DNA of 21,617 nucleotides from a virus. Position 1 is the first letter of the stretch. Each line of letters starts with the position of its first letter. Positions 2,302 through 15,889 of this stretch are shown here, one piece after another. A program made the translations under genes and the position numbers. The stretch lies in the IMG/VR virus record IMGVR_UViG_3300000117_000328, positions 1-21,617 of that record. One strand, 5' to 3'. The notes under the pieces were generated by a model, which saw nothing but the letters and a program-made list of their open reading frames with translations, searched no databases and was not told the DNA's origin.

Positions 2302-3021
2302 TTACTTGAATGCATTTTGGAACATTTCGTCGGTAGTAAGAGACGAAAAGTCCTGACTCACGACGCCGTTGGCATCGGTTCCACCGTAACCAATTCCAGC
2401 ACCTGCTCCCTTGGCTCCCTTAAAGAAGGTGCCATAGATGGGGTGAGACTTGTACTTCGAGATGTAGTCATCTACGGAAATACGCTTGCCGGACTCTTTG
2501 TCAAGAACAGGGTCACCGCCTGCGTCAACGACAGTCAAGGAACCATCAGGCTCTTGGCGGAAGTTGCCACCGATCTGCTGCGCCATCATGTCAAAGAACG
2601 ACACGCCGTCAGCTGCGTCAGTACGACCACCAGCTGCGTAGAACACTTTTTCCAAAGCATACTTCTTCTGGTAGTCCTGCAGGGCAGCCTTGGCGGCTGC
2701 GGCTTCTTGAGCAGCGGCTTCAGCCTGCTTGCTATACTTCAGTTCGATAGCCTCTTTGGCTTCACCGAATTGAGCCTGTGTACGAGCAGCTTCTGCAGCT
2801 TCAGCCTGCAGCTTAGTATACTCCTCAGGGTTGATCTCAGAGAAGCGCTCCAGTTGACCCTTTGTTTCCTTAAGGTCACGCTCGTACTGCTTCCGTGCTT
2901 CCCGTTCAGCCTTAAGAGCCTTCAGGAGATTCTCCGCTTCAGAACGAGGCATCATGTCGTCGCCTGTTAAAACGGGTGAGGCATTAACTTCCGTCTCGGG
3001 AGCCATGTTCTCTTCAGTCAT
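2302..3021 (-). CDS. Capsid scaffolding protein
   Basis: A 239-residue, highly charged protein. Residues about 25-125 form a long Ala/Glu/Lys/Gln-rich coiled coil (from PRSEAENLLKALKAERE through repeated QAEAAEAA-type heptads to DYQKKYALEKVFYAAGG). The C-terminal part is shorter, glycine-rich and ends DEMFQNAFK. This architecture, and a position immediately before the major capsid gene, is typical of phage scaffolding proteins, which guide coat assembly through their C-terminus and leave or are cleaved before DNA packaging. No protease motif is visible, so scaffold removal must rely on another gene or on exit. ATG at 3021 follows a perfect leader hairpin. Confidence 0.85.
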   Translation of the reverse strand: MTEENMAPETEVNASPVLTGDDMMPRSEAENLLKALKAEREARKQYERDLKETKGQLERFSEINPEEYTKLQAEAAEAARTQAQFGEAKEAIELKYSKQAEAAAQEAAAAKAALQDYQKKYALEKVFYAAGGRTDAADGVSFFDMMAQQIGGNFRQEPDGSLTVVDAGGDPVLDKESGKRISVDDYISKYKSHPIYGTFFKGAKGAGAGIGYGGTDANGVVSQDFSSLTTDEMFQNAFK

Positions 3022-3028
3022 GTTAAAT

Positions 3029-3043
3029 CAGGCGTCACGCCTG
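3029..3043 (-). promoter_or_regulatory. Perfect hairpin in the scaffold leader
   Basis: CAGGCG and CGCCTG pair perfectly over a TGA loop (minus strand), ending 7 nt before the scaffold ATG. There is no T-run, so it is not a terminator. It lies between the conserved element and the start codon and could control translation or mRNA stability. Confidence 0.5.
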
Positions 3044-3059
3044 TTTGAATGTTACGCGG

Positions 3060-3068
3060 TAGTATGCC
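3060..3068 (-). promoter_or_regulatory. Conserved leader element copy (GGCATACTAC)
   Basis: GGCATACTAC on the minus strand, 39 nt before the scaffold ATG at 3021. The extra distance compared with the usual 20-22 nt is taken up by the hairpin at 3029-3043. Confidence 0.6.
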
Positions 3069-3076
3069 AATCAGTC

Positions 3077-3778
3077 TTAAGGGCCAGGATAGTCAGGGGT
3101 AGGATCGTCAAGAACAGCTGTTCGCCAGAAGGCATTGACGACGACGTCGTAGTAGTCACTGATTTGCCCAGGACCGATGAACGAAAAGCTAAAGGTCTGA
3201 GTAGCTGGATTATTACCGGCGCAGTCCGCTAGTATGGTTTGGGGTCCCATGGAGTAACCAAACTGACCCAGTCTTGTTCCGTTATAAACGCGCCTAAGGC
3301 TGACGGCTCCAGAACCAGTACCACCATAATAAACCGGGTTCTGGTCGCAGACGCTGGCCTTAACGCTAACAGTCCTGTCTACGACGGTTGGCCAGTATGC
3401 ACAAGTCAACCCGTCAAAGCTACAGAGAGGACCAGTGCCAGCACCTATAGGGACAACATTCTCAATAGCGACGTCGGGGTTGAGTGGCTCAGGGTCCCGA
3501 TACTGGGTGACCTGTGTTGTCACGACATCGCCGTCTTCGTTAATGTACGGCTCCAATATCTCATAAGCGATATAAATTACGCCTGATACATTTGCACGCC
3601 CAACAGTATTGATCGTAGCTACCCAGACCCCAACGTCGATACAGTCGCAAATCGATGCATTAAACACCCCTTGCCCACAGCAGGGATCTTTAGGGTTGTA
3701 GGCCTTGCCCTCATTAGGGCCGAACAAGCACTTTGACTTAGGCTTGCACTCGTTCATATCGGCGGGACAGATAGCCAT
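3077..3778 (-). CDS. Unknown virion-type protein with Cys-rich N-terminus, 233 aa
   Basis: ATG at 3778 immediately follows the TAG of the upstream gene, so translation is probably coupled. The first 50 residues are cysteine-rich (ICPADMNECKPKSKC, then PCC, ICDC), and further cysteines bring the total to about eleven. The rest looks beta-rich (VATINTVGRANVSGVIYIAY, TQTFSFSFIGPG). There is no signal peptide, membrane helix or enzyme motif. Its position just before the scaffold and next to a zinc-ribbon-like gene suggests a structural or assembly role, but I do not recognise the family. The cysteines might bind a metal or form disulphides in the finished particle. Confidence 0.6.
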   Translation of the reverse strand: MAICPADMNECKPKSKCLFGPNEGKAYNPKDPCCGQGVFNASICDCIDVGVWVATINTVGRANVSGVIYIAYEILEPYINEDGDVVTTQVTQYRDPEPLNPDVAIENVVPIGAGTGPLCSFDGLTCAYWPTVVDRTVSVKASVCDQNPVYYGGTGSGAVSLRRVYNGTRLGQFGYSMGPQTILADCAGNNPATQTFSFSFIGPGQISDYYDVVVNAFWRTAVLDDPTPDYPGP

Positions 3779-4132
3779 CTAGCGACTCCACTTCTTCTGA
3801 GGGCACAGCATGTTGGGGTCACCTCCAACCCACGTCTTCGCTTCCATAAAGCAACCACAATCGGAACAGCGCTTGCTCTCTGCACTGAAGAAGGGGCACT
3901 CTTTACATGTGTTATACCTTTCTTCTCTGATCTCCGACGACACCTTCCCGTGCCTAACAGCTTGCATCCCTGTTTTCACTAAGCCGCTAGCCATCTTACC
4001 TATCCCGGCCTTGACCTCCTTGGGCTTGCTGCTATGTTTGGCTATAATCTCATCGTGACGCTCCTTGGGCCAAGCAGAGACAGGACCAGTAGGAGCGACC
4101 CCATCGCAACTGAGTTCTTCTATGATGCTCAT
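3779..4132 (-). CDS. Small zinc-ribbon-type phage protein, 117 aa
   Basis: The C-terminal half carries CKECPFFSAESKRCSDCGCF followed by MLCPQKKW. The spacing C-x2-C, C-x2-C-x-C and a final Cys before KW is typical of a small phage/bacterial zinc-ribbon family of unknown role. The N-terminal half is basic and probably helical. ATG at 4132 is preferred to the in-frame TTG at 4141 because it places the conserved leader element at the standard 20 nt. The gene runs directly into the next one (TAG then ATG). Zinc binding is inferred from the cysteine pattern. The partner could be nucleic acid or protein. Confidence 0.7.
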   Translation of the reverse strand: MSIIEELSCDGVAPTGPVSAWPKERHDEIIAKHSSKPKEVKAGIGKMASGLVKTGMQAVRHGKVSSEIREERYNTCKECPFFSAESKRCSDCGCFMEAKTWVGGDPNMLCPQKKWSR

Positions 4133-4151
4133 CCTAACCAATTAGCTGGGC

Positions 4152-11554: not shown

Positions 11555-14500
11555 TCAATTGTACCGAAGGCGCTTGAGCTTAGCAAGCTGAACCATTACG
11601 TCACTAGCGGCCTGCGTGGGATTAATCGCTTGAATGGTTACAGAGTTTTGGACGTGATCGCCTGTGCTGTTATTGATCGTGCTAATAGCGCGAGCGACTG
11701 CATTCTCAGGACTGACGTTACGAGGCATACTGATCTCAGTGTTTTGGCTTGCTTTAATACCCTTCCAGACATGAGCAGGAATAACGCTACCGCTGGAAGG
11801 AGCCCTCCAGGACCCGAACGCAGGCGCTTTGATCTCTGACATTTTGCCGGAAGCGCTCAAGAACCCCTCTGTCCCCAGCTCGTTGACGGTATAAGTAGAA
11901 CCACCAGAAACAGGGCCGCCAGCAAAGCGAGCGCCGTCTGCACCTCCAGTGCCCATACTCGCCATCTCCCGCTTAATTCTAAGGACTTTTTGCAATTGGC
12001 GCTCCAAGGCGCCATTGGTGACATTATCAACAGCTTTACCAACTTCCCCCTGTGTGCCGATTTGCTTACTCATCTCCCATTCGATGTCTTCGACTTTTTG
12101 ACGCTCTTTTTCATGAGCCTTTACCAGACTATCGATTTGCGACTTTGCCTTTTCGGTTGCTTCTTCACGTGCCTCTTTTTCGTCGCTGATCATTTGGTCC
12201 ACCGCGTTGTGCGCCGCTTCCTTCTCATCCTGGAGCGCTTGGACGTCATCTTTTTCTTGTTGCGAGATGTCTTTCTTTTTACCAGCAAGAGATTCAACTG
12301 CCTCTTGGATCTTTTGGAGAGCCTCTGTCTGAGACTCCTGTATCTCCTTGAGGCGCTCTTTCTCTTCCTGGTCTAGCCTTTTCTTTTCCTCCGCTTGCTC
12401 TTTCTCTAACTGCTTTTTCTCCTCTAAGGCTTTCTCCATCTCGGCTGCCTGCTGCTTCTCCAGCTGTGCCCTCTGCTCTGACAGCTGCATGCTCTCAAGC
12501 TCAGCCTTTAGCTCTTGCTTCTTAAATTGATCTGTTTCAGACGCAATATCTTGTTTCAACTTCCGCACTTCCATCAGGCGAAGCTTCTCGTTCTGAGGCC
12601 CGGTATCAAGGTTCCCCATCGCGGCGCCTTGGGTTTTTTTCAAGCTGGCTATCCTTTCGTCCATCTGCGCCATCTCTTTGTTATGCGCCGCTTCCATCTC
12701 GGACTTCAGCTTGGAGTAATGCTCTTTGACGAGCTCTGTTTGCTCCGAGTAATACGCTTTGACTGAATTTTTCTGGCTGTTCAAAGCTTCGATTTGATCT
12801 TGAATAGCGCGTTTTTCAGCTTCAGCAGCTCGATTAATATATTCGATTTTCCCATCATATACCTTGCTGATAGCGGCTTTCTGACCTTCGAGGGCTTCAA
12901 TTGATTGATCGATAGCGCTAATTTCCGCATCCTTGGCTGCATTGATACTATCGATCTTGCGGCCCATTAACTGCTCGTCGCGATCAAGCTGCGCCTCCCT
13001 GGCTTCTATCATTTTATTCATTTTATCCTGTTCGATAGCCAGCTCTTTCTCAGCATTCTTCCTCACGGCTTCGGCCTGTCTTGCTAGGATCTCTTCTCTT
13101 TTCTTGGCGTATTGTTCTTGCGTTATCTCTCCCTTCTTGAATTGAGCGTCTAAGTTGTCTAGCTCATCAGTATATTTCGCTAGCTCAGCCGTAGCTCCAA
13201 TCGTTTCATCGCTTAGTTTACTCATGCCGTCAATACCTGAGTCAAAGTTGGCGTTCAACTTTTTGGCCATCTCTTCCAGGCCGTCCAACATGGCTCCAAT
13301 GCCAGGTATATTTTTCAGTGCATCATACAGAAACATAATACCCCTCACAAGTTGGTCGATAGCTTCCATCAACGCCCCAAACAGGTAGAGTACTGTATTA
13401 AGAGCAACCTTAAGAACAACGCCGATAACATGACCCAGTCCCTGGAAAAGTGCCTGAACTCCAGGCATCTCCGTAGCGACCTTTGTGAACACTTGAACGA
13501 AGGCCGCGTAGATCTTCATCAACTCTTTACCAAGAGGGGCCAGTGCTTTGCCTACCGATTCCAGGCCAATAGACGTCAGCGTCTGCAGTTTAGCGTTCAA
13601 CTGGTTCAGCGTCATTCCACCTTTTTCGCCCATCTCCTCGATAGCTTTCTGAGTATCACCAATAGAACGCAAGAACTTTACACGAATTTCTTCGTTAATC
13701 GCTTCAAATGCTTCCAGGAAGATACCAGAGGTGATCTCACCCCTCTTCATGGCACCTTCAAAGTCGGTGATACCCTTGTTTGCGGCAAGCCAGTTCTTTA
13801 GTTGACCCCGTAAACCACCGTCAAGTTCAGAGAACTGCTGGTTAAGTTCTTCTGACTGCAGTTTCCCTTTACCCATGACCTGGGCAAAAGCTTCAATGTA
13901 TCGACCAGCTTGCTCGGTATTCAAGCCAAGCATGGTAGTTCTAGCTGAGATCGACTTGATCGCGCCTTCTGTGTCCTTTAAGCTGCCACCGGACTCAAGG
14001 ATAGCAGGACCCAGGCGGCGGAAAGCTCCTTCAACCTTGCGGAGAGAGACGCCATAACTTAGCGCAATATTTCTGGCGGATCCCAGGATGGCGTTTTGAG
14101 CTTCAACGCTCTGCCCTAGGCCATCAAAGGTTAGCTTAAGCGCTTGGATATCTTTGACACGGCCAGTAAGCATGCCGATAGAACCAGCCAGCGCCGTTAT
14201 CCCTGCAATGATGGCAGTGACTGCACCAAAAGCACCCTGCATAGCTTGCCCCAAGCCCTTAATCTTAGACCCGAATCCCTTTGTGGCATTTCCTGCAGTA
14301 GCGACTTGCTGACTTAGCCCTGCAACAACGCCTTTTTGCGCCACCCATTCCTGGTTGACAACTGCAACCATCTTCCCTTGTTTGTCCAGCTCCATGTTGT
14401 ACTGGCTCATCATGGAGAGCCTCTGGCTTTCATCACGCAGCTGGCCTTTAAGGGAGGACAGGGTGCTTACTCTTGCTAGAACGCCTTCAAGCCTTTTCGC

Positions 14501-14962
14501 CTCGTCCGTATGACCTTTCTGGAGTTGTATATTCTTCTTGTAACTTGCTGAGTTCTTTGTGAGAAGCAGTTGTTGCTGTTTAAGACTATTGATCTTATCT
14601 TTGTGAATAGCCAGCTCTTTCTTAATGGCCAAGGCGGACTGGCCTTGAATGTTAACCATTTTATTATAGTCGCCGATCATCCCCTTCAAGGCACCATCAG
14701 CCGCCTTTTTTACTTCCTTGAAGCCACCGGAAGCACTGCTCGTCTCGTAAGTAACCTTAACATCAACGTCTTTATTGGCCTTCTTCAGCTCAGCGTCCAT
14801 CTTCTTGCTGAGGGTGTTGAAGAGGGCGGTGTTGCCTTCCTTGACAGCCTTCGCCCCCTGCTTAACAAGACTCTCAATAGCAGCCTCTGCTTGAGTCGCA
14901 GACTGGCGATCAACGGTAGGGACTATGACAAAATTGGAGCCCCTGATAACATCACCAGCCAT
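11555..14962 (-). CDS. Tape measure protein, 1135 aa
   Basis: The longest gene in the window. Residues about 285-410 carry the tape-measure N-terminal type region (YGVSLRKVEGAFRRLGPAIL, TTMLGLNTEQAGRYIEAFAQ, LQSEELNQQFSELDGGLRGQ). Two hydrophobic stretches lie near 242-267 (FGAVTAIIAGITALAGSIGM) and 505-560 (HVIGVVLKVALNTVLYLFGA). These are typical of segments that reach the host membrane at DNA entry. Residues about 605-985 form a very long Glu/Lys/Gln coiled coil. By the usual rule of about 0.15 nm per residue, the tail would be near 170 nm, supporting a siphovirus-like tail. ATG at 14962 is preceded by a conserved element directly after a terminator. Confidence 0.93.
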   Translation of the reverse strand: MAGDVIRGSNFVIVPTVDRQSATQAEAAIESLVKQGAKAVKEGNTALFNTLSKKMDAELKKANKDVDVKVTYETSSASGGFKEVKKAADGALKGMIGDYNKMVNIQGQSALAIKKELAIHKDKINSLKQQQLLLTKNSASYKKNIQLQKGHTDEAKRLEGVLARVSTLSSLKGQLRDESQRLSMMSQYNMELDKQGKMVAVVNQEWVAQKGVVAGLSQQVATAGNATKGFGSKIKGLGQAMQGAFGAVTAIIAGITALAGSIGMLTGRVKDIQALKLTFDGLGQSVEAQNAILGSARNIALSYGVSLRKVEGAFRRLGPAILESGGSLKDTEGAIKSISARTTMLGLNTEQAGRYIEAFAQVMGKGKLQSEELNQQFSELDGGLRGQLKNWLAANKGITDFEGAMKRGEITSGIFLEAFEAINEEIRVKFLRSIGDTQKAIEEMGEKGGMTLNQLNAKLQTLTSIGLESVGKALAPLGKELMKIYAAFVQVFTKVATEMPGVQALFQGLGHVIGVVLKVALNTVLYLFGALMEAIDQLVRGIMFLYDALKNIPGIGAMLDGLEEMAKKLNANFDSGIDGMSKLSDETIGATAELAKYTDELDNLDAQFKKGEITQEQYAKKREEILARQAEAVRKNAEKELAIEQDKMNKMIEAREAQLDRDEQLMGRKIDSINAAKDAEISAIDQSIEALEGQKAAISKVYDGKIEYINRAAEAEKRAIQDQIEALNSQKNSVKAYYSEQTELVKEHYSKLKSEMEAAHNKEMAQMDERIASLKKTQGAAMGNLDTGPQNEKLRLMEVRKLKQDIASETDQFKKQELKAELESMQLSEQRAQLEKQQAAEMEKALEEKKQLEKEQAEEKKRLDQEEKERLKEIQESQTEALQKIQEAVESLAGKKKDISQQEKDDVQALQDEKEAAHNAVDQMISDEKEAREEATEKAKSQIDSLVKAHEKERQKVEDIEWEMSKQIGTQGEVGKAVDNVTNGALERQLQKVLRIKREMASMGTGGADGARFAGGPVSGGSTYTVNELGTEGFLSASGKMSEIKAPAFGSWRAPSSGSVIPAHVWKGIKASQNTEISMPRNVSPENAVARAISTINNSTGDHVQNSVTIQAINPTQAASDVMVQLAKLKRLRYN

Positions 14963-15058: not shown

Positions 15059-15304
15059 TTATACGATAGTAAGAACCGTGAAATGACCGATTCCTTGTCC
15101 TCCATCTTCAGTGACCTCGACGATATCGCCAACAGCGAAACCAGAACCAGGACTGATGATTTGAACTCCGTCGAGCAGGCCTGCGTCTGATGTGACGGTA
15201 GCCGTAGCGCCCAAGCCAGTACTGTCGTTACCTGGATTGAGCGTTACTGCGATTCCTGCTCCACGACCATCAAATGGGTTATCCGTGTTAAATGGATTAA
15301 CCGT
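15059..15304 (-). CDS. Orphan frame after tail tube gene: ACG-start protein or readthrough domain
   Basis: Downstream of the tail tube TAG (15325-15323) the same frame stays open for 87 codons to TAA at 15061-15059. The translation looks genuine: VNPFNTDNPFDGRGAGIAVT ... ATATVTSDAGLLDGVQIISP-GSGFAVGDIVEV. It shares the 'GxGxxxGD' beta module of phage tail proteins. There is no ATG, GTG or TTG in the first part. A perfect AAAGGAGGT Shine-Dalgarno lies just after the TAG, and the codon at ideal spacing is ACG (15304), giving 81 aa. Either ACG is a rare or mutated start (or a base error), or ribosomes read through UAG to make a 276-residue long tail tube protein. Extra C-terminal domains on tail tube subunits are known in other phages. 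The module itself I am fairly sure of; the start is open. Confidence 0.6.
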   Translation of the reverse strand, partial: TVNPFNTDNPFDGRGAGIAVTLNPGNDSTGLGATATVTSDAGLLDGVQIISPGSGFAVGDIVEVTEDGGQGIGHFTVLTIV

Positions 15305-15310
15305 GCCGAT

Positions 15311-15319
15311 ACCTCCTTT
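15311..15319 (-). promoter_or_regulatory. Perfect Shine-Dalgarno without a canonical start codon
   Basis: AAAGGAGGT on the minus strand is the best ribosome binding site in the window. ACG follows at about 7 nt, with no ATG, GTG or TTG in range in any frame. It lies directly after the tail tube TAG. Confidence 0.7.
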
Positions 15320-15322
15320 CAG

Positions 15323-15889
15323 CTAAGCAGCCAAGGTCAGGTGGTAAGGACCGTATCCGGTAAGTGTACACTCCCAGGACACGATGCTCGTAACTTCGTT
15401 GGACTCGGTATAGCCGGTCAAGGTGCCGTAGCCTTCAACAGTCTCGGTGGTGCCAGTAGGACCAACACGCTTGAAAGCAACACGCAGGCCATCAGCCACG
15501 GTGTTCTGCTCAGTCAGGCGAAGGACCTTGTAAGCGGCGTCGTTGAAGTCAGCAATACCGGAAAGAGAGATGCTAAAGCTCTTGGTGGTTGCTACAGCCT
15601 GGGAGTAGCCCTTGGTCTCGTCGTCGTAGGTGTAGATCTCTTCAGAACCAGTGTCAGTCTCAAGAGCAGCGTTCGTCAAGCTAGCCAGACGGATGCCAGG
15701 GTCAGTGCCGTCCATCGCGTAAGCAGTGGAAGCTACAGTGAAGATGCCGTTGCTGTAGGAAACGGTAGCATCAGAAGCTGGAGGGGTGGTACTGTCCAGT
15801 GCTGGGTTGGTCGCAAAATCGGTGATCAGCGAGTTCTGAACAGGGACAATGTAAAAGTCGTAGCCGAATGCGGCTGAAAAGTTTGCCAT
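15323..15889 (-). CDS. Major tail (tail tube) protein, 188 aa
   Basis: Starts MANFSAAFGYDFYIVPVQNS from the ATG at 15889. The C-terminal half has the marks of siphovirus tube subunits: KSFSISLSGIADFNDAAYKV (about 108-127), a loop with VAFKRVGPTGTTETVEGYGT (about 140-160) and the closing strand SIVSWECTLTGYGPYHLTLA. This beta-sandwich protein would polymerise into the tail tube around the tape measure. It sits between the tail terminator candidate and the tape measure, with a long leader containing two hairpins and a terminator downstream, as expected for an abundant product. The TAG stop is followed in frame by a further 87 codons, so a longer minor form is possible. Confidence 0.85.
   Translation of the reverse strand: MANFSAAFGYDFYIVPVQNSLITDFATNPALDSTTPPASDATVSYSNGIFTVASTAYAMDGTDPGIRLASLTNAALETDTGSEEIYTYDDETKGYSQAVATTKSFSISLSGIADFNDAAYKVLRLTEQNTVADGLRVAFKRVGPTGTTETVEGYGTLTGYTESNEVTSIVSWECTLTGYGPYHLTLAA

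Follow-up and report, generated by a model that had tools for sequence, protein, structure and literature searches.

In SPP1, +1 frameshifting at CCCUAA gives the tail tube protein an 87-aa FN3 extension, and gp17.1 and the extended gp17.1* are found in tails at a ratio of about 3:1 (PMC6316719). The Listeria phages A118, A500 and PSA also recode a tail protein via +1 frameshifting, as reviewed in PMC5009743. According to a further review, which makes no mention of readthrough, the C-terminal domains of major tail proteins face outward and perhaps touch carbohydrates (PMC8718954). In lambda gpV, a tube domain is followed by a C-terminal Ig-like domain with no intervening stop codon, and the domain is present on every subunit.

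Eukaryotic viruses are well known to use programmed UAG readthrough, and in the RNA phage Q-beta a leaky UGA gives rise to the minor coat protein A1. To our knowledge, programmed UAG readthrough is scarcely documented in bacteria, and a search of the open-access literature found no report of stop-codon readthrough for a tail protein of a dsDNA phage. UAG readthrough with a 3' pseudoknot yields MuLV Gag-Pol (mentioned in PMC5009743). The paper on the structural proteome of P-SS2 mentions neither frameshift, readthrough nor tail tube (PMC2784084).

Here we describe a viral tail tube gene that we read, with a probability of about 0.87, as carrying a programmed leaky amber codon which would yield a minority form of 276 aa. 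As in SPP1, recoding where the tube gene ends would provide a siphovirus tube with a C-terminal beta-domain extension, and even the length of the extension, 87 aa, is the same. However, this extension follows a UAG in frame 0, the sequence 3' of that stop is conserved, and no proline-codon +1 slip is involved; hence the system would work like that of SPP1 without sharing its mechanism. The Listeria phages likewise differ in using frameshifting rather than stop-codon readthrough. With lambda gpV the predicted protein shares the two-domain layout, although gpV has no stop codon between the domains and displays the second one on all subunits. As for Q-beta A1, a phage structural protein would be lengthened in frame by stop-codon readthrough, but that case concerns the capsid of an RNA phage and a UGA, and proteins and context are unrelated. 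The proposed UAG readthrough and the predicted RNA structure 3' of the stop recall MuLV Gag-Pol, which however relies on eukaryotic ribosomes, is a different system and shows no homology.

The tail tube gene is followed by an open extension in the same frame

The gene is located in a 21,617-nt stretch of viral DNA (IMG/VR record IMGVR_UViG_3300000117_000328, positions 1 to 21,617), here called the window. The tube ORF occupies 15889-15323 of the minus strand, TAG included, and encodes 188 aa (Table 1). In PHROG, its product matched the tail protein family 38654 (E 9e-60) and the major tail protein family 1407 (E 3.5e-10), and Pfam gave a sub-threshold tail-tube match only. Residues 6-188 of an AlphaFold model resembled tail tube proteins of solved structure, with VIA Z scores up to 12.5. 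The 1135-aa gene after the tube is the probable tape measure gene, its position being that of S-CBS2 gp021 and S-CRES1 gp77.

Behind the TAG the tube frame stays open for 87 codons and closes at a TAA (15059-15061, minus strand), as an earlier note on this DNA had described. Decoding of the TAG as one residue gives 188 + 1 + 87 = 276 aa, which bears out the length proposed there for a readthrough product. The same note had observed that no normal start lies near the beginning of the extension, and this holds: the frame offers no ATG, GTG or TTG before the TTG at 15214, which lies 36 codons into the extension. Also present, with the spacing it had claimed, are AAAGGAGGT at 15319-15311 and an ACG at 15304-15302 (minus strand). 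An open frame of 87 codons arises by chance with a probability of about 1-2% [(61/64)^87], which is only mildly improbable. The window alone thus proves little, and the case was therefore built on relatives.

Table 1. Features of the tail tube locus in the window
Feature	Position	Strand	Basis
Major tail tube protein, short form, 188 aa	15326..15889	-	PHROG and fold matches
Putative leaky UAG (amber) stop codon	15323..15325	-	Co-occurrence of TAG and extension, at least 7 independent co-switches
Putative recoding context T-TAG-CTG-AAA-GGA-GG	15312..15326	-	Synonymous constraint, motif scans
Predicted readthrough extension, 87 codons, beta-rich C-terminal domain	15062..15322	-	Family dN/dS, predicted beta domain
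Candidate 3' stem-loop just downstream of the stop	15265..15316	-	Family-wide folding peak
Intrinsic-terminator-like hairpin 3' of the extension TAA	14997..15020	-	Read directly: AAGGGCCTTACAAGCCCTTTTTTT
Next gene, 1135 aa, probable tape measure protein	11555..14962	-	Long ORF directly after the tube

The stop codon and the extension switch together among relatives

The tube protein retrieved 80 loci from IMG/VR, and the stop codon and the sequence downstream of it were inspected in each. Among these loci, tubes with an extension ended in TAG followed by CTGACTGGAGG or a near variant, and no other stop occurred in this group. The extensions were 81-95 codons long (or about 187), started with LTGG, LIGG or similar, and continued the frame of the tube in every member. 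Tubes without an extension ended in TGA or TAA, and a terminator-like hairpin followed directly after the stop. More distant tubes, down to about 44% identity, were then added and duplicates removed. The resulting set, which was not selected by motif, comprised 61 tube genes with extension and TAG and 30 with TGA or TAA and no extension. One locus (L266) with a TGA and 62 open codons behind it was considered as an exception and rejected, since its frame exits the contig end and the module is not resembled.

On a tree of 80 tubes the extension state changes nine times, at least seven of them on well-supported branches, and the stop codon switches along with the extension in all seven independent pairs. 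Cultured phages fall on both sides: S-CBS2 carries the exact motif, and the tubes of S-CRES1 and P-SS2 end in TGA without an extension. An ATG within the first 30 extension codons was found in a single sequence out of 63, and about half had no ATG, GTG or TTG there at all. The TAG and its surroundings are conserved in this family of marine cyanobacterial viruses, and on this account constitute a real, testable signal and not a sequencing error. Readthrough, one of the options raised in the earlier note, is strongly supported by the conservation of extension, TAG and flanking bases in relatives, and the likeness drawn there to long and short tail tube forms made by frameshifting (SPP1, Listeria phages) is apt.

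A distant relative of the tube (L268, match at 2501-3103) is fused to the beta module with no stop between them, a natural constitutive version of the presumed readthrough product. In the GenBank entry of S-CBS2 (GU936714.1, 12118-12354; gp020) the extension appears as a 'structural protein' of its own that starts at a GTG. This separate gene is probably a gene-calling artefact that hides the readthrough form. About one gene upstream of the tube, S-CBS2 and the S-CRES phages carry an HNH endonuclease gene on the opposite strand; the coordinates of the gene are L081 1277-1741, L082 1020-1442 and L083 671-1138.

The junction is constrained at the nucleotide level

The consensus of the family at the junction is T-TAG-YTG-AYT-GGA-GG. 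At extension codon 2, where ACT or ATT is usual, the window has AAA, which occurs in 1 of 63 extension-bearing sequences and makes AAAGGAGGT peculiar to the window. In 50 non-redundant sequences, codon homozygosity reached z values of 11.9 at codon -1, 14.1 at +1, 10.9 at +2 and 16.6 at +3. Between +4 and +7 the synonymous constraint was weaker, and it had reached background at codon +8 and beyond. A moderate excess (z 3-5) was also seen at some codons before -1 and may be due to common ancestry of the tubes.

A T precedes the TAG in 65 of 65 genes with extension, versus 7 of 32 without. The codon it belongs to varies (GCT, AAT, AGT, ACT and others); stop-hopping was rejected on account of this variability and of the missing matching landing codon. 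Codon +1 is always YTG (59 CTG and 4 TTG in 63 sequences); elsewhere in the extensions CTG and TTG make up 20% and 11% of the leucine codons.

Viral contigs were also scanned for the motif itself. Exact TAGCTGACTGGAGG was found in 85 stretches, and where at least 60 codons were open both before and after it, the locus belonged to the tube family, with one unrelated exception (L153). The scan with the ATT variant gave 16 long-frame cases out of 78, all 16 of them tubes and each with a T at -1. A control scan of viral contigs with the TGA version of the motif returned 115 stretches, none of them a tube. An alignment-based viral scan recovered mostly the same loci, and one more came from a scan of cellular genomes.

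Predicted RNA structure is enriched 3' of the amber codon

RNAalifold, applied to 12 mixed extensions, found neither a consensus structure nor a shared register. Energies were therefore evaluated for each sequence separately, by comparing the folding of 60-nt windows with controls in which the protein was kept and synonymous codons were resampled. An excess of folding was observed just 3' of the TAG, with mean Z of -1.6 and -1.7 (s.e. about 0.2) for windows starting at +7 and +19. Elsewhere Z was typically -0.3, and fixing the junction codons did not abolish the 3' peak. The GGAGG of S-CBS2 opens a long stem that reaches about 60 nt (z -3.3). Many other members pair GGAGG with CCTCC. Where codons 6-7 encode Ala-Ser, they read GCC TCC in 16 of 19 cases, against an expected 8%, and GCC TCC pairs with GGAGG.

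The stem of the window itself is weak (z +0.62 against dinucleotide shuffles). Five close relatives show two compensatory pairs in it, a number equalled or exceeded in 68 of 500 shuffles and hence not significant. A 3' structure is thus supported at the level of the family, judging from predicted folding, with the window's own stem being weak.

The extension is a selected and exchangeable beta domain

Over 102 pairs the median dN/dS of the extension was 0.16, and by this measure the extensions are under purifying selection. A single-sequence AlphaFold model of the fusion had a pLDDT of 31.6 and was discarded, and a model based on an alignment of 47 sequences reached a mean of 86.6. It shows the tube fold, a short linker at the position of the stop and, at residues 197-272, an independent beta domain with a pLDDT of about 90-95. 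Foldseek placed lambda gpV, C-terminal domain included, as the top match of the whole modelled fusion. Matches in the PDB were mainly over the tube domain and did not identify the fold of the extension, which is no evidence of novelty. Pfam contained no family matching the extension, and PHROG gave weak matches to various structural proteins.

The window's tube and that of L174 are 96% identical over the last 170 residues, and their extensions 37%; the comparison of L011 with L127 gives the reverse case, with 64% for the tubes and 88% for the extensions. From these comparisons, extension modules have clearly been swapped between tubes. Used by itself as a query, one extension was recovered either behind TTAG-CTGA in tube genes or inside larger ORFs, and no stand-alone gene with a start of its own turned up.

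Five loci (L029, L047, L055, L160 and L085) have double-length extensions of 185-188 codons, and the first four resemble the FNTDNPF module of the window in their second half. An almost unchanged 187-codon extension is shared by tubes that differ widely in their identity to that of the window. The same beta module was also seen within a different ORF of 331 aa (L472:1081-2073). Other distant matches to the module lie in very long ORFs, and the type represented by L483 and L493 recalls tail sheath proteins.

Alternative explanations

The extension could instead be a small protein of its own, made by ribosomes that stop at the UAG and, guided by GGAGG, restart at the adjacent CUG or UUG or a few codons on. 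Codon +1, being always YTG, could serve as a start, GGAGG looks like a Shine-Dalgarno sequence, and S-CBS2 gp020 is annotated as a protein with its own GTG start. However, GGAGG lies downstream of the YTG, some members have GGAAG or AGAAG in its place, and in the predicted hairpin it is often base-paired. The stronger starts ATG and GTG are absent at codon +1, and start codons are not enriched 7-10 nt after GGAGG. Such restarting does not require UAG, yet no extension follows TGA or TAA, and under it neither the T at -1 nor the codons ACT GGA would have a role. We regard it as unlikely. The earlier note had also considered initiation at the ACG behind AAAGGAGGT, giving a separate 81-aa protein, for which the spacing in the window is good. 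Its proposal to check this codon in related genomes gave a clear answer: relatives carry TCC, GGT, GGG, CAG, ACT and others at this position, so that neither ACG nor any other start is conserved and start codons are not enriched, and an ACG start is hardly credible. The same verdict applies to its third option, a sequencing or assembly error that hides a normal start, and to a decayed fusion gene. A single base would convert ACG to ATG, but dozens of independent contigs share the TAG and the missing start, and cultured S-CBS2 shows the TAG layout as well; this recurrence already refutes an error, and purifying selection on the extension speaks against decay.

Phages with reassigned stop codons are known, and if a suppressor tRNA or a reassigned code made amber decoding efficient, the long form would be the main product. 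In the window, TAG ends 11 other ORFs taken as genes (among 28 minus-strand ORFs). The earlier note had put this number at about twelve, and its conclusion that TAG is not generally reassigned follows from these genes. In S-CBS2, 18 of 89 plus-strand genes end in TAG. A search for tRNA genes returned none in the window or in ten other loci, the complete S-CBS2 genome and five other large contigs lack any tRNA, and a CUA anticodon was not found, tRNA-Met being the sole clear phage tRNA. Moreover, a fully decoded codon needs no conserved context, and we consider this explanation very unlikely. Even less probable is that the conserved junction DNA is a recombination seam for module swapping, with the TAG incidental. 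Modules are clearly exchanged between tubes, but a seam needs no in-frame stop, does not explain why TAG is lost together with the extension or why third codon positions are constrained, and the extension must still be translated.

Programmed readthrough as the preferred reading

Programmed leakiness of the amber codon is the reading that we favor, on the strength of the in-frame extension, the obligatory TAG, the junction, the folding signal, the purifying selection and the module swapping found by comparing sequences. That ribosomes do read through, at some level and by inserting some residue, that the long form is built into virions and that it serves in binding are inferences from these. 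The majority of ribosomes would terminate at the UAG, so that the 188-aa tube protein is released. In a minority of cases a near-cognate host tRNA would decode the UAG, and translation would proceed without a change of frame to give the 276-aa form, i.e., the tube plus a C-terminal beta domain of 87 aa. The level of readthrough would be set by U-UAG-YUG-AYU-GGA-GG, aided by the 3' RNA structure. Short and long subunits would co-assemble and, as in SPP1 with gp17.1*, place the extra domain on a fraction of the tail surface, where it may perhaps bind weakly to the cell surface. We further lean towards the view that the amber-readthrough element of these cyanosiphoviruses may act as a modular display switch, in which swappable adhesion-like domains behind a fixed leaky stop are shown on a set minority of subunits.

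The outcome for the tail tube would be the same as in the frameshifting phages, but recoding would work differently, through a bacterial readthrough signal that is compact and conserved. Besides in-frame fusion and frameshifting, this would be a third genetic route to a tail tube of two forms, and one in which extension domains are exchanged behind a fixed, putatively leaky stop. The conserved element of about 15 nt and its natural TGA counterparts offer a comparative system for UAG readthrough in bacteria.

Gene callers split or drop extensions of this kind, as the separate gene in the S-CBS2 entry illustrates. At 3778-3781 of the window, a further TAG ends the ORF at 3779-4141 (minus strand), and the next gene begins with an ATG immediately behind it, without a change of frame; unlike the tube junction, this is an ordinary stop-start junction.
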